NCBI GenBank assembly: GCA_004292595.1
Contig: RDXM01000103.1
Coordinates: 1 to 41,017 of the forward strand
Direction: 5' to 3'
Source: Candidatus Kapaibacterium sp.
GTDB lineage: Bacteria; Bacteroidota; Ignavibacteria; Kapaibacteriales; UBA4661
Length of the DNA stretch: 41,017 nt
Shown here: positions 2,677 to 24,048 of the stretch, piece after piece
Layout of the letters: every line of letters starts with the position of its first letter
Numbering within the stretch: position 1 is the stretch's first letter
The notes under the pieces: model-generated
Told to the model about the DNA's origin: nothing
Seen by the model: only the letters and a program-made list of their open reading frames with translations
Database searches by the model: none
Program-made: the position numbers and the translations under genes

Positions 2677-4074
2677 TTACCGCCGATAGCGATATTTTTC
2701 AAACGGCATTCCCGACGACAAACGAAAATCCGAGCCAAAGCCTGTAAAATCAACAAAGACGAACTCCCGCGCAAAGGTCGGATAGACCCACGACCAGAGA
2801 ATACGCCCATCGCGGCGGACATCGCGGGTGTATTGAGGTTGTCCAAAAATAGTGTAAATCATGCCCATATCCGATGCCCAGCCTTCGCCTGCGCCCATGG
2901 TGCGAAAATTCCTATTTGCATAGTCAATACGCTGGTAGTATTCCTCAAACGCCTCATTGCGCAAGGTTTTCGGCGTGGGGTCGAGGCGTTGCCAATACTC
3001 GTAGAAGCGTTTTTGTTTTTCTTCTTCGTTTGTTCCGTTTTGAATCGTTGTTATCTCGCCCGCCTGTGCGACGTAGCGCATTTGCCGCACTGCACGGTTG
3101 AGTTCCTCGCCTTTGAGCATCGTCAGCCAGCCTAAGCCTTTCCATTCCAAACGAATTGTCCGTGCAGAGGCAGCAATCACGTCGCGGTCTTGGAATTTCT
3201 GCGTGGTGTCGTTTGCCCGCAAGGCGAGAACACGCAAAGTATAGTTCCCAAGCTGCATCTGGGGCGGGAGCTTGATGCCGAGATAATGTTGGTCGCGTGG
3301 CGCGGCAACGTTATAGCGTGTGCGGCGACTCATGGTGAGGCGATTATTTTTTTCATCCAGCACTTCGCAGACAAAATCGGCGGAATCCAAGCCCGGACCA
3401 AAAGCATTATAGGTTTCAAAGAACACATAGAAGCCATCCTGCGTGAGGGGCGATACGTCGTCGCTCAGGTACGGCGTGATACCGAAGCGGTCTCCATTTG
3501 GCGTAATCGCGCTCGCAAGCATGACGCTACTCATCGCAAATTGCATTGCATCTACCTGAAGAGCCTTGAAACTACGCTGCATAGAGACGGTGCGTTTGCT
3601 CAAAATATCTTCCACTTCAGCAATGACGGTGTACGAGCCGGGCGCAATCATAAATGATGTTTGCATATTGTCAAAGGCTGCCGTTGCGCCCAGCGTAGCT
3701 TCTATGCGGTCTTCTTTCAAGGGGCGTTCTTTGCGAATTGTTTGTAAGTCCTTGCCTGTTGTCGCATCTTTAAGCGTAATGGTCAAGTAATAATCGCCTA
3801 AATACACACCGTCTTTTTTCATGAAACTGAGCGTGGTGTAGGGAACAACGGTAAAAATGTCCACACGCTGCGTAGAATCTCGGTCGCCTTTAAAGAAAAG
3901 CACATCCATAAAAAACGCCTTTGCGGGGCTTTGCTGTGGAATCGGCGACGGCGCATTTTGGAAAACCGTACTCGGGCTGTTTTGTGCGCGAAGCAGCGTA
4001 CTCGGCAAGGCAAGCACTAGAGCGCATAGCCCAAACACAAGTAATGGTGAGCTTTTCAAAGGATATTGTTTCAT
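2677..4074 (-). CDS. GWxTD domain-containing secreted protein
   Basis: A 465-residue protein starting at the ATG whose complement is at 4072-4074. The open frame runs nine codons further to a TTG, but the ATG gives a normal signal peptide (MKQYPLKSSPLLVFGLCALVLALP..., cleavage near LRAQ). The C-terminal part contains GEGWASDMGMIYTIFGQP followed by YTRDVRRDGRILWSWVYP, which is the GWxTD domain seen in Bacteroidota and relatives. Here the usual Thr of GWxTD is Ser (GWASD). The middle consists of beta-rich segments. The family is exported and uncharacterised, and commonly found in genomes with T9SS. No Shine-Dalgarno sequence is seen. It follows the enoyl-CoA hydratase gene on the same strand, separated by a 15-bp direct repeat. 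Confidence 0.8.
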   Translation of the reverse strand: MKQYPLKSSPLLVFGLCALVLALPSTLLRAQNSPSTVFQNAPSPIPQQSPAKAFFMDVLFFKGDRDSTQRVDIFTVVPYTTLSFMKKDGVYLGDYYLTITLKDATTGKDLQTIRKERPLKEDRIEATLGATAAFDNMQTSFMIAPGSYTVIAEVEDILSKRTVSMQRSFKALQVDAMQFAMSSVMLASAITPNGDRFGITPYLSDDVSPLTQDGFYVFFETYNAFGPGLDSADFVCEVLDEKNNRLTMSRRTRYNVAAPRDQHYLGIKLPPQMQLGNYTLRVLALRANDTTQKFQDRDVIAASARTIRLEWKGLGWLTMLKGEELNRAVRQMRYVAQAGEITTIQNGTNEEEKQKRFYEYWQRLDPTPKTLRNEAFEEYYQRIDYANRNFRTMGAGEGWASDMGMIYTIFGQPQYTRDVRRDGRILWSWVYPTFAREFVFVDFTGFGSDFRLSSGMPFEKYRYRR

Positions 4075-20906: not shown

Positions 20907-22469
20907 TTACCGTGCATACGCCATTGAACGCCGCTCGCGCACAACCGTTACGCGGATTTGCCCTGGATATTCCAGTTCGTTTTCAATGCGCGTGGCAATG
21001 TTATTTGCGAGCGAATCCGCCAGCAAGTCATCCACGCGCTCTGGCTCGACAATGACGCGGATTTCCCGACCTGCTTGAATAGCAAAGGTCTTGGTAACGC
21101 CCTCAAAACTGGTGGCAATGCCTTCCAACTGCTCCAAACGCTTGATGTAGCTCTCAAGCGATTCCCGACGCGCACCCGGACGCGCTCCGCTAATGGAGTC
21201 GGCGGATTGAATAAGCGGCGCGAAAATACTTTCCATCGGAATATCGTCGTGGTGCGCTCCTACGGCATTGACGATAATTGGATGCTCGTTGTATTTTCTG
21301 GTCAAATCCATACCAATCAGTGCGTGCGGACCTTCAACACTTTTATCTACACACTTTCCAATGTCGTGCAGAAGCCCTGCGCGTTTTGCGGGAATGGGGT
21401 CTAAGCCAAGTTCGGTTGCCATAACGCCGCTTAAATACGCCACTTCCATTGAGTGATGCAAAAGATTTTGTCCGTAGCTGGAACGATATTTCATGCGCCC
21501 GACAAGGCGAACAAGCTCGTTGTGAACGCCGTGAATACCGAGTTCCAAGAGCGAATTTTCGCCGATGCTGCGGATTTCGTCTTCCAATTCTTTCGTTGTT
21601 TTTTCAACAATTTCTTCAATGCGTGTTGGGTGGATGCGCCCGTCGCTCATAAGACGCTCCAGCGAGATTTTTGCCACTTCGCGCCGGAAGGGGTCGAAAC
21701 CAGAAATCAAGACCGCTTCTGGCGTGTCGTCGATGATGAGGTCAATGCCAGTTGCTGCCTCGAAGGCGCGGATATTACGCCCTTCGCGTCCGATAATGCG
21801 CCCTTTCATGTCCTCGCTGGCAAGATTCACCACCGAGACGGTTGTTTCGATAGAGTGGTCGGAAGCGGTGCGCTGTATGGCTTGAACAATGATTTTCTGC
21901 GCCTCGCGCTTTGCGTTTTCCTTCGCATCGTCGCGGATGTCCTTGATTTTCTGCGCTGCGGCAGCCCGCGCATCGTTCATCATATTTTCCATCAAATACT
22001 TTTTCGCATCATCCTTCGACATTCCGGTAATGCGCTCCAAACGCAGCGTTTGTTCTTTCAGCGATTCTTCTGCCTTACCGTAGATTTCATCGGCACTGTG
22101 GCGTTTTTTCTCAATATCTTTTTCGAGCTGCTGGAGCTGCTTTTCTTTGCGATTGATAAGTTCTACTTTTTTCTCAATGTTCTCCTCGCGTGTTTTCACC
22201 TGCTTTTCGTACTGCTGCATTTTATTTTTTTTGGTCTGGACGTGGTTATCGTATTCCTGCTTTTTCTGAAACCACTCATCTTTTACTTCCAAGAGGCGTT
22301 CTTTTTTGATAGTTTCTGCCTCTTTTTCTGCGTCGTCAAGAATATTTTGCGCACGGGTGCGCGCTTCGGCAATGGTGCGTGCTGAGGCTTTGTTCAGAAG
22401 AAAATATCCCGCACCTGCGCCTAAAATCAAGCCCAGAATGCTGAGAATTATTGGCATGAGAGTATCCAT
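20907..22469 (-). CDS. rny: Ribonuclease Y
   Basis: A 520-residue endoribonuclease of the usual length. An N-terminal membrane anchor (PIILSILGLILGAGAGYFLL) is followed by a long coiled coil (~30-200), a KH RNA-binding domain (MKGRIIGREGRNIRAFE, GXXG loop) and an HD domain with HDIGK as metal-binding signature, then the family C-terminal domain ending GQIRVTVVRERRSMAYAR. It starts mRNA decay at the inner membrane. GGAG ahead of the ATG gives a good ribosome binding site. It lies downstream of zapA and of a structured RNA candidate, a gene order seen in Bacteroidota. Confidence 0.97.
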   Translation of the reverse strand: MDTLMPIILSILGLILGAGAGYFLLNKASARTIAEARTRAQNILDDAEKEAETIKKERLLEVKDEWFQKKQEYDNHVQTKKNKMQQYEKQVKTREENIEKKVELINRKEKQLQQLEKDIEKKRHSADEIYGKAEESLKEQTLRLERITGMSKDDAKKYLMENMMNDARAAAAQKIKDIRDDAKENAKREAQKIIVQAIQRTASDHSIETTVSVVNLASEDMKGRIIGREGRNIRAFEAATGIDLIIDDTPEAVLISGFDPFRREVAKISLERLMSDGRIHPTRIEEIVEKTTKELEDEIRSIGENSLLELGIHGVHNELVRLVGRMKYRSSYGQNLLHHSMEVAYLSGVMATELGLDPIPAKRAGLLHDIGKCVDKSVEGPHALIGMDLTRKYNEHPIIVNAVGAHHDDIPMESIFAPLIQSADSISGARPGARRESLESYIKRLEQLEGIATSFEGVTKTFAIQAGREIRVIVEPERVDDLLADSLANNIATRIENELEYPGQIRVTVVRERRSMAYAR

Positions 22470-22591
22470 GTCGTTGCTCCAAATAATAAAATTCTATGGG
22501 AAAGGAAGAGACAAAATTGTGAATTGTAACGCCTGAACGGTGGTTGTTCCTATCAGGCTTGTGAGCGGAGGAATTATTTTAAAAACAAAAA

Positions 22592-22842
22592 TACCGTACC
22601 GATTCACCGCAAGTAAAGGTCTATATAAGAACTCTAGTCAGACACAGTGGGTAAACGCCCTTCTACATTTTGCTTCCAATGAACCCCGTTTCTCCAGAGA
22701 AGGCAGCTATTGTGCGATGACCGGACGGGATTTCCTTCTCAGGGAGAAGGTAAGGCCTGTAATTTGTAGCCGGAGCAGAATTCCCTAATAAAAAAGATTA
22801 TAAGTTCTTATGTAAGGGTCTGTACGGTGAACCAGTACGGTA
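22592..22842 (-). ncRNA. Structured RNA candidate between zapA and rny, possibly 6S RNA
   Basis: On the minus strand, UACCGUACUGGUUCACC (22842-22826) and GGUGAAUCGGUACGGUA (22608-22592) form 17 consecutive pairs, two of them G-U. They close a domain of about 251 nt. Inside lie a 14/16-nt internal loop, a 9-bp helix (AUAAGAACU 22811-22803 with AGUUCUUAU 22633-22625), and a central region with a CCUUCUC/GAGAAGG hairpin. The 3' strand of the closing helix runs straight into UAUUUUUGUUUUU, a terminator-like end. Long closing helix, internal bubble, U-tract end and the position next to zapA (ssrS follows zapA in many bacteria) suggest 6S RNA, which sequesters sigma-factor-bound RNA polymerase. It is longer than most 6S RNAs, and I do not see a family-specific sequence motif. 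No open frame with coding character occupies it. Confidence 0.5.
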
Positions 22843-23047
22843 CTTTTGGGTGCTTGGTATAGTGGTGCTGCTTAATGACAAACTATATCAAGACTTCCAT
22901 GCAAAACGTAACGATACTGTTGGCATAACGAGTATGCCGATGCAATATCAAAGAACATGAAGAAAACAATTATCAGCAATTTTCGTATAAGCAATCTTCG
23001 TTTGAAAGATTCTTTGCAATGATTCTACACGAGCGTCGAACTCACGT

Positions 23048-23548
23048 TTACGAGATAGTATCAGATTTTCCAAGATTTGTTGGTAAAGAGACAGTTCCTG
23101 CTAACGATGATTTTTCTTGTTTTTCGTTGTGATTCTTTTGCATCGGTGCTTTGGTGTACCCTTTATCGTTTGTTTTCTCGTATTCTAATACATCTTGATT
23201 TTTTGAGCCATGAGTTGTGTTGCCTACTGGGAGTGGAGTGTCGGCAAAAGTTTTACTGCCGATACTCGCATCGCCAAAGGACTGACGCAAATACGCTACC
23301 ATTTTTTCTACTTCAGAGGCAAGATAGAGTTTGTCGCGCTGCTGCTGCTGCCGTACGTCATGTTCTTGCTCGGCAACGTTCAACGCGGTAAGAATGGAGA
23401 GTGTCGCGGTTGATTGTTCTTTGCTGCTACCTTGAATCAAGCGGAATTGGGTATCAACCTTTGCTGCAACGTCCCGCACTTTGGCTTCGTCGTCGCTTCG
23501 CAAGTTGTACTCTTGTCCACCGATTTTTACGCGCACTGTTTTTTTCAT
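23048..23548 (-). CDS. zapA: Cell division protein ZapA
   Basis: A 166-residue protein started at the ATG at 23546-23548 (complement). The open frame extends 27 codons further upstream, but that part is a transposon remnant (see 23570-23720). Residues 1-~95 match ZapA: KKTVRVKIGGQEYNLRSDD, then the conserved helix with ILTALNVAEQEHDV and a coiled coil. ZapA cross-links FtsZ filaments at the division site. The C-terminal ~70 residues (Lys/Asn/Ser-rich) are an extension not found in the ~100-residue family norm and look disordered. It is followed by the structured RNA candidate and rny. Confidence 0.85.
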   Translation of the reverse strand: MKKTVRVKIGGQEYNLRSDDEAKVRDVAAKVDTQFRLIQGSSKEQSTATLSILTALNVAEQEHDVRQQQQRDKLYLASEVEKMVAYLRQSFGDASIGSKTFADTPLPVGNTTHGSKNQDVLEYEKTNDKGYTKAPMQKNHNEKQEKSSLAGTVSLPTNLGKSDTIS

Positions 23549-23569
23549 GTTTGTTGGATTATACAGACC

Positions 23570-23720
23570 GTGAATCACCCCGCGCCCAAAGACGGGAGCT
23601 TCTTGGTTCAACGACGTGGATGCCTCCACAGTCTCCCCAAGCGTTTATTCGGGCAATTCCTGCCCTATTGATGCTTCTAACGCCTGAAGCATCCTCTCTC
23701 CGAGCATATTACTGAGAGAG
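23570..23720 (-). pseudogene. IS200/IS605-type scar: tnpB 3' end and omega-RNA-like fold
   Basis: On the minus strand two reading frames recall TnpB C-termini: AGIARINAWGD in one and, after a shift, EASTSLNQEAPVFGRGV in another, with a stop before it. The DNA ends in a hairpin (GAAGCTCCCGTC ... GCGGGGTGATTCAC, 23611-23570), which is the typical right end of IS605-group elements and the 3' end of TnpB omega RNAs. Three more hairpins lie just upstream: GGGCA/TGCCC (23651-23665), GATGCTTC/GAAGCATC (23670-23693) and a 7-bp CTCTCTC/GAGAGAG (23694-23720). The ~150-nt size fits an omega RNA. No tnpB catalytic region or tnpA is present, so this is a decayed fragment. It ends 21 bp before the zapA start codon. 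Confidence 0.6.
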
Positions 23721-24048
23721 TCATAGCATTGGTGGTATCGCTTTTATGCCTGTCAGATTTGATGCGCTCCAGAAGGAGGTTTGCAGCACAAGCGGCTATC
23801 TTCAAAGAACTGTGGCAAAAATACACATTCTACGATTGACAACCAAAAGAACTTCGCTGCGCTCTTCGGTGGCGCATCCTGCGGTATCAACGACAAACCA
23901 CACTGCCCAAGAGTACTGCGACGAAATGTCGTATACTCTGCTATGCCCGAAAGCAAAAAGAACAGCACATCAGACAAACACGGTAATCTACACATTTTCT
24001 CACACTGTTTCAACAAGAAAAAATGCAAAGTATGTACGTCTATATTTG
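23721..24048. other. Remainder of the zapA-methyltransferase gap; no gene supported
   Basis: A 328-bp stretch with only short frames. A 91-codon minus frame (23753-24028) begins at TTG, is Cys/Phe/Leu-rich and resembles nothing known, so it is not called. Part of the region may be older insertion-element debris joined to the IS605 scar, and the original zapA promoter may have been displaced to here. Confidence 0.45.

Follow-up and report, generated by a model that had tools for sequence, protein, structure and literature searches.

The zapA–rny gap and the RNA predicted within it

The window, a stretch of 41,017 nucleotides from Candidatus Kapaibacterium sp. (contig RDXM01000103.1), carries on its minus strand a zapA gene (23048-23629; PF05164, E = 2.1e-13; start codon uncertain) and, downstream of it, rny, which encodes RNase Y (20907-22469; PF12072, E = 7.6e-52). 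The gap between these genes contains a predicted mature RNA of ~251 nt (22592-22842, minus strand), which is supported by its fold and by matches to the Rfam 6S family RF00013 and to a covariance model, R1, described below. An earlier note on this DNA had placed a 6S-like RNA at exactly these coordinates and on this strand, and had named both flanking genes; all of this agrees with the domain matches, which put zapA and rny on the strand of the RNA. The segment folds at -84.8 kcal/mol, compared with -62.7 +/- 4.8 kcal/mol in 200 dinucleotide shuffles, none of which was equally good (z = -4.64).

The predicted RNA is closed by a helix whose 5' arm (22823-22842) and 3' arm (22592-22611) form 20 contiguous pairs. 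None of 300 mononucleotide shuffles reached this length (mean 9.9, maximum 16). The earlier note had recognized this helix, but its count of 17 pairs was too low. The further elements that it described, namely a 9-bp second helix, an internal bubble, and a U tract directly after the 3' strand, were all recovered. In the second helix, AUAAGAACU (22803-22811) pairs with AGUUCUUAU (22625-22633) over nine positions. It adjoins a central bubble whose 5' strand (22786-22802), the predicted pRNA template, lies opposite 22634-22648, as placed by the RF00013 alignment and the consensus structure. On its inner side the bubble is closed by an invariant GGG (22783-22785) paired with an equally invariant CCC (22649-22651), and an inner helix follows (22765-22774 with 22658-22667). 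The apical domain of 76 nt (22678-22753) varies in length and sequence among relatives (MAFFT alignment A1). Directly 3' of the closing helix lies the U-rich, terminator-like tract UUUUUGUUUUU (22581-22591), and in relatives, too, the closing stem is followed by U tracts. All of these elements are on the minus strand.

With 251 nt from stem to stem and self-closed ends, the RNA lies at the upper end of the size range of 6S RNA (~150-250 nt). The earlier note had remarked that it exceeds a typical 6S RNA, and the apical domain accounts for the main part of the excess; the RNAs of relatives measure 223-293 nt, U tract included. The arrangement of closing stem, second stem, central bubble, and inner stem is that of the 6S hairpin and is supported by the consensus structure, covariation, and the RF00013 alignment. 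However, when folded without constraints, the single sequence adopts a minimum-energy structure that departs in part from this 6S core, and forcing the core costs 7.4 kcal/mol, which counts against a 6S RNA. A scan for sigma-70 promoters found nothing, and neither did a terminator scan, which is blind to hairpins with a loop so large.

Covariation, gene order, and distribution

The proposed pairing shows strong covariation among relatives. In alignment A4, which comprises 54 distinct sequences and was fitted to the structure, hence leaning towards it, 96.4% of the cells are standard pairs, compared with 45-55% for slid partners. Changes on both sides were found in 17 of the 23 pairs, and none of 500 shuffles reached any of five measures. 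Such changes affect eight of the nine pairs in the second helix and likewise eight of nine in the inner helix. The GGG/CCC step is G-C in 54/54 sequences; being invariant, it provides no covariation information. The MAFFT alignments A1 and A3 gave the same picture as A4, and A1 also shows covariation in the closing stem. The earlier note had held that a lack of compensatory changes in relatives, or conservation of the region as protein-coding sequence, would speak against the 6S-like RNA. Neither result was obtained: the relatives do show compensatory changes and share no reading frame. A protein-coding region was rejected as an explanation, because no frame is open throughout the relatives.

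The gene order is also conserved. All 42 loci examined have a ZapA frame upstream in the same orientation, although some of the distant ZapA matches are of low significance (E up to 0.04); RNase Y lies downstream in 41 of the 42, the exception (L054) being without RNase Y in the sequence examined. A zapA neighbor supports the assignment as 6S RNA but does not strictly define it. In E. coli, ssrS follows zapA too, in keeping with the earlier note's remark that this is the place of ssrS in many bacteria, whereas rny is not alongside. The proximity of rny bears on the alternative raised in that note, according to which the structure is a cis-regulatory leader within the rny mRNA, through which RNase Y controls the decay of its own message. 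The position of rny, which follows the RNA in the same orientation in 41/42 loci and often lies within ~100 nt of the core, would fit such a leader, which should then adjoin rny directly in all relatives. This is not the case in four loci from the same genus as the window (L003-L006), where a 268-aa frame (e.g., L004:1811-2617) separates the RNA from rny and the RNA is kept. This intervening gene and the RNA's own U-rich tract at its self-closed end weaken the proposal. Moreover, the architecture and the full-length alignment are those of 6S RNA, and the ssrS of E. coli adjoins zapA without rny. An rny leader is therefore very unlikely. The intervening frame has the look of a short-chain dehydrogenase, as judged by eye from the motifs VTGAARGIG and YASSK.

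Plain blastn reached the RNA in only 15 of 61 near genomes, and covariance models were therefore needed. R1, a model of the core built from 14 trimmed sequences, matches 22625-22815 (minus strand) with 117 bits, the window being part of its training set. Of the 149 genomes of the class, 108 gave a match, as did 162 of the 395 genomes sampled across the phylum. R2, a broader model made from 55 loci, extended the latter count to 214 of 395, and with both models each matching genome contained one match. Among the sampled genomes listed for the window's own class, 96 of 98 matched R2, a copy number and conservation as found for 6S RNA; the two without a match are G017 and G069.

This distribution also bears on the possibility that the gap merely contains a chance inverted repeat or a mobile repeat element. 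Repeats do occur nearby: the closest relative carries an inverted repeat, long and nearly perfect, just downstream of the 6S RNA (L002:1811-1878), which may be a mobile repeat element. However, a repeat of either kind is contradicted by the covariation and the gene order, and further arguments against it are the fold z of -4.64, the presence of one match in each matching genome, and a gene slot that is the same in different families. The odds that the structure is such a repeat are very small.

Relationship to known 6S RNA families

At the gathering thresholds of Rfam, neither the window nor its relatives matched any family. In a permissive search of the gap (581 nt searched) with 4227 Rfam families, RF00013 gave the one meaningful match, which covers model positions 1-187 of 187 on the minus strand with 28.8 bits (E = 5e-4). 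The RF00013 search, which the earlier note had proposed, thus yielded a full-length match below the gathering score of the family (46.4 bits), a value that is the curators' database threshold rather than a biological trait. The statement in that note that no family motif is visible was too pessimistic, since the RF00013 consensus can be aligned over its whole length. Closing stem and second stem are common to both, and the GAAC/GUUC stem, the bubble, the GGG/CCC step, and the GGCC...GGAAGC elements of RF00013 are found at matching places. The difference between the 187-position model and the 251 nt of this RNA mainly reflects the 76-nt apical insertion.

Relatives show end-to-end matches to RF00013 at the same place, which are likewise below the threshold (31.4, 30.5, 37.8, 35.6, 33.7, and up to 42.3 bits). 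None of the 395 sampled genomes of the phylum passed the RF00013 cut-off, whereas controls including E. coli and B. subtilis did. Sub-threshold matches were found in 55 genomes. R1 matched 41 of these as well, and in every one of the 36 for which both sets of coordinates are listed, the R1 match lies inside the RF00013 match. A search of the organism's own genome with RF00013 returned none at E <= 0.001, the search space being larger than that of the gap. Two loci without a reported R1 match were found by R2 (L070 and L079, in genomes G387 and G346). RF00013 matches the first with 41 and the second with 36 bits; both loci are located between ZapA-like and RNase Y-like frames and represent a further divergent form of 6S RNA.

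The curated family 6S-Flavo (RF01685) gave no match in the gap up to an E value of 10, nor did the bacterium's own genome contain one at E <= 0.001. It matched 49 genomes, none of which is among the 162 with an R1 match, although this mutual exclusion follows lineages, and a naive probability for it should not be read literally. In the 6S-Flavo loci read, the RNA occupies the same slot between zapA and rny (proteins judged by eye), its hairpin layout is similar by eye, and a U tract follows at the 3' end. Its sequence, however, has diverged beyond the reach of R1 and R2. As both models give 6S-Flavo and the 6S RNA of E. coli no score above noise, neither is a universal 6S model.

Two of these results count against a 6S RNA at this locus: the score of 28.8 bits is below the 46.4 bits of the RF00013 cut-off, which no relative passes either, and models built from these RNAs score neither E. 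coli 6S RNA nor 6S-Flavo above noise. The assignment is based instead on the full-length RF00013 alignment, covariation, the occurrence of one match in each matching genome, and the shared gene order. The same evidence supports the main proposal of the earlier note, a 6S-like RNA downstream of zapA. Thus, 22592-22842 (minus strand) is, with high probability, ssrS, the 6S RNA of this bacterium of the Kapaibacteria group. The zapA–rny gap almost certainly encodes a 6S RNA that is divergent enough for the Rfam cut-off to miss. In the paper collection searched, no publication links 6S RNA with Ignavibacteria, or small RNA with Kapabacteria.

Proposed function and implications

6S RNA, a small RNA, holds RNA polymerase by imitating an open promoter. 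The RNA of this Kapaibacterium could act in the same way: it is one long hairpin, whose open central bubble mimics a melted promoter. By analogy to 6S RNAs elsewhere, including that of Bacteroides thetaiotaomicron (see below), it would be expressed and bind the RNA polymerase holoenzyme with the primary sigma factor. Growth-phase control would then result if the RNA kept polymerase off promoters once nutrients are exhausted. For its release, the polymerase may use the 5' strand of the bubble as template for a short pRNA. The predicted pRNA, which should begin AUAAGUUCUUAUG, would be transcribed from 22800 to 22824 on the plus strand. Aligning the RNA with RF00013 and with ssrS of E. coli suggested its start: position 22800, three bases into the bubble, is analogous to U44 of E. 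coli 6S RNA; the 3' end is provisional.

Alternatively, the RNA might be of the Ms1 type, which is 6S-shaped but binds the polymerase core without a sigma factor rather than the holoenzyme. Ms1 is structurally related to 6S RNA (PMC9130861), and hence shape alone is not decisive. However, no Rfam family other than RF00013 gave a meaningful match, and the zapA neighborhood is that of ssrS. Furthermore, the phylum has a documented case of 6S RNA accompanied by pRNAs, both of which dRNA-seq detected in Bacteroides thetaiotaomicron (PMC7366714), a member of the same broad group. An Ms1-type RNA is accordingly most improbable, and the following considerations refer to a 6S RNA.

The gap between zapA and the 6S RNA also contains a boxA-like element, GTTCTTTGA (22948-22956, minus strand), ~105 nt upstream of the RNA. 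Such elements are enriched ahead of the RNA in relatives. GTTCTTT was found in 19 of 45 loci (~1 expected) and the stricter G[TC]TCTTT[GA]A in 13 (0.2 expected) within the 230 nt that precede the core; downstream of the core the counts were 4 and 0, respectively, and on the opposite strand of the upstream 230 nt neither motif was found in the 45 loci. Because the loci are related, their counts lack independence, but they come from several families. The forms GTTCTTTGA, GCTCTTTAA, or GTTCTTTAA precede the RNA in L002, L007, L008, L013, L024, L051, L054, L056, L058, L059, L065, L092, and L096. Because the distance between element and RNA varies, a leader signal fits better than a promoter element. 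The rRNA leaders inspected were those of relatives, as the own genome shows no 16S start: GTTCTTTGA is located before the 16S rRNA in three of five, a close variant, ATTCTTTAAAA, occurs in the fourth, and the motif is absent in the fifth, which is from a genome with 6S-Flavo. Further copies of GTTCTTTGA in the window are at 23802-23810 and 3416-3424 (both minus strand), one of which precedes the zapA frame by ~170 nt. In a published survey of boxA targets, non-coding RNAs were, by the authors' own statement, left out of consideration (PMC5725501). Tentatively, a 6S precursor might carry a boxA in its leader, and the Nus-factor antitermination complex that serves rRNA might also govern 6S RNA, although we consider this rather unlikely. 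If functional, the element would connect 6S RNA with the machinery for rRNA antitermination, and a boxA leader would couple the RNA that sequesters polymerase to the regulation of ribosome synthesis.

If annotation depends on the RF00013 cut-off, 6S RNA will be omitted in this part of the phylum, and the omission makes these bacteria seem to be without a widespread regulator. The R1 and R2 models, combined with the slot between zapA and rny, offer a simple route to annotate 6S RNA and to pick pRNA starts. Finally, the order zapA-6S-rny, which is common to 6S-Flavo and in part to E. coli, supports the view that separately named forms of 6S RNA are one orthologous gene.
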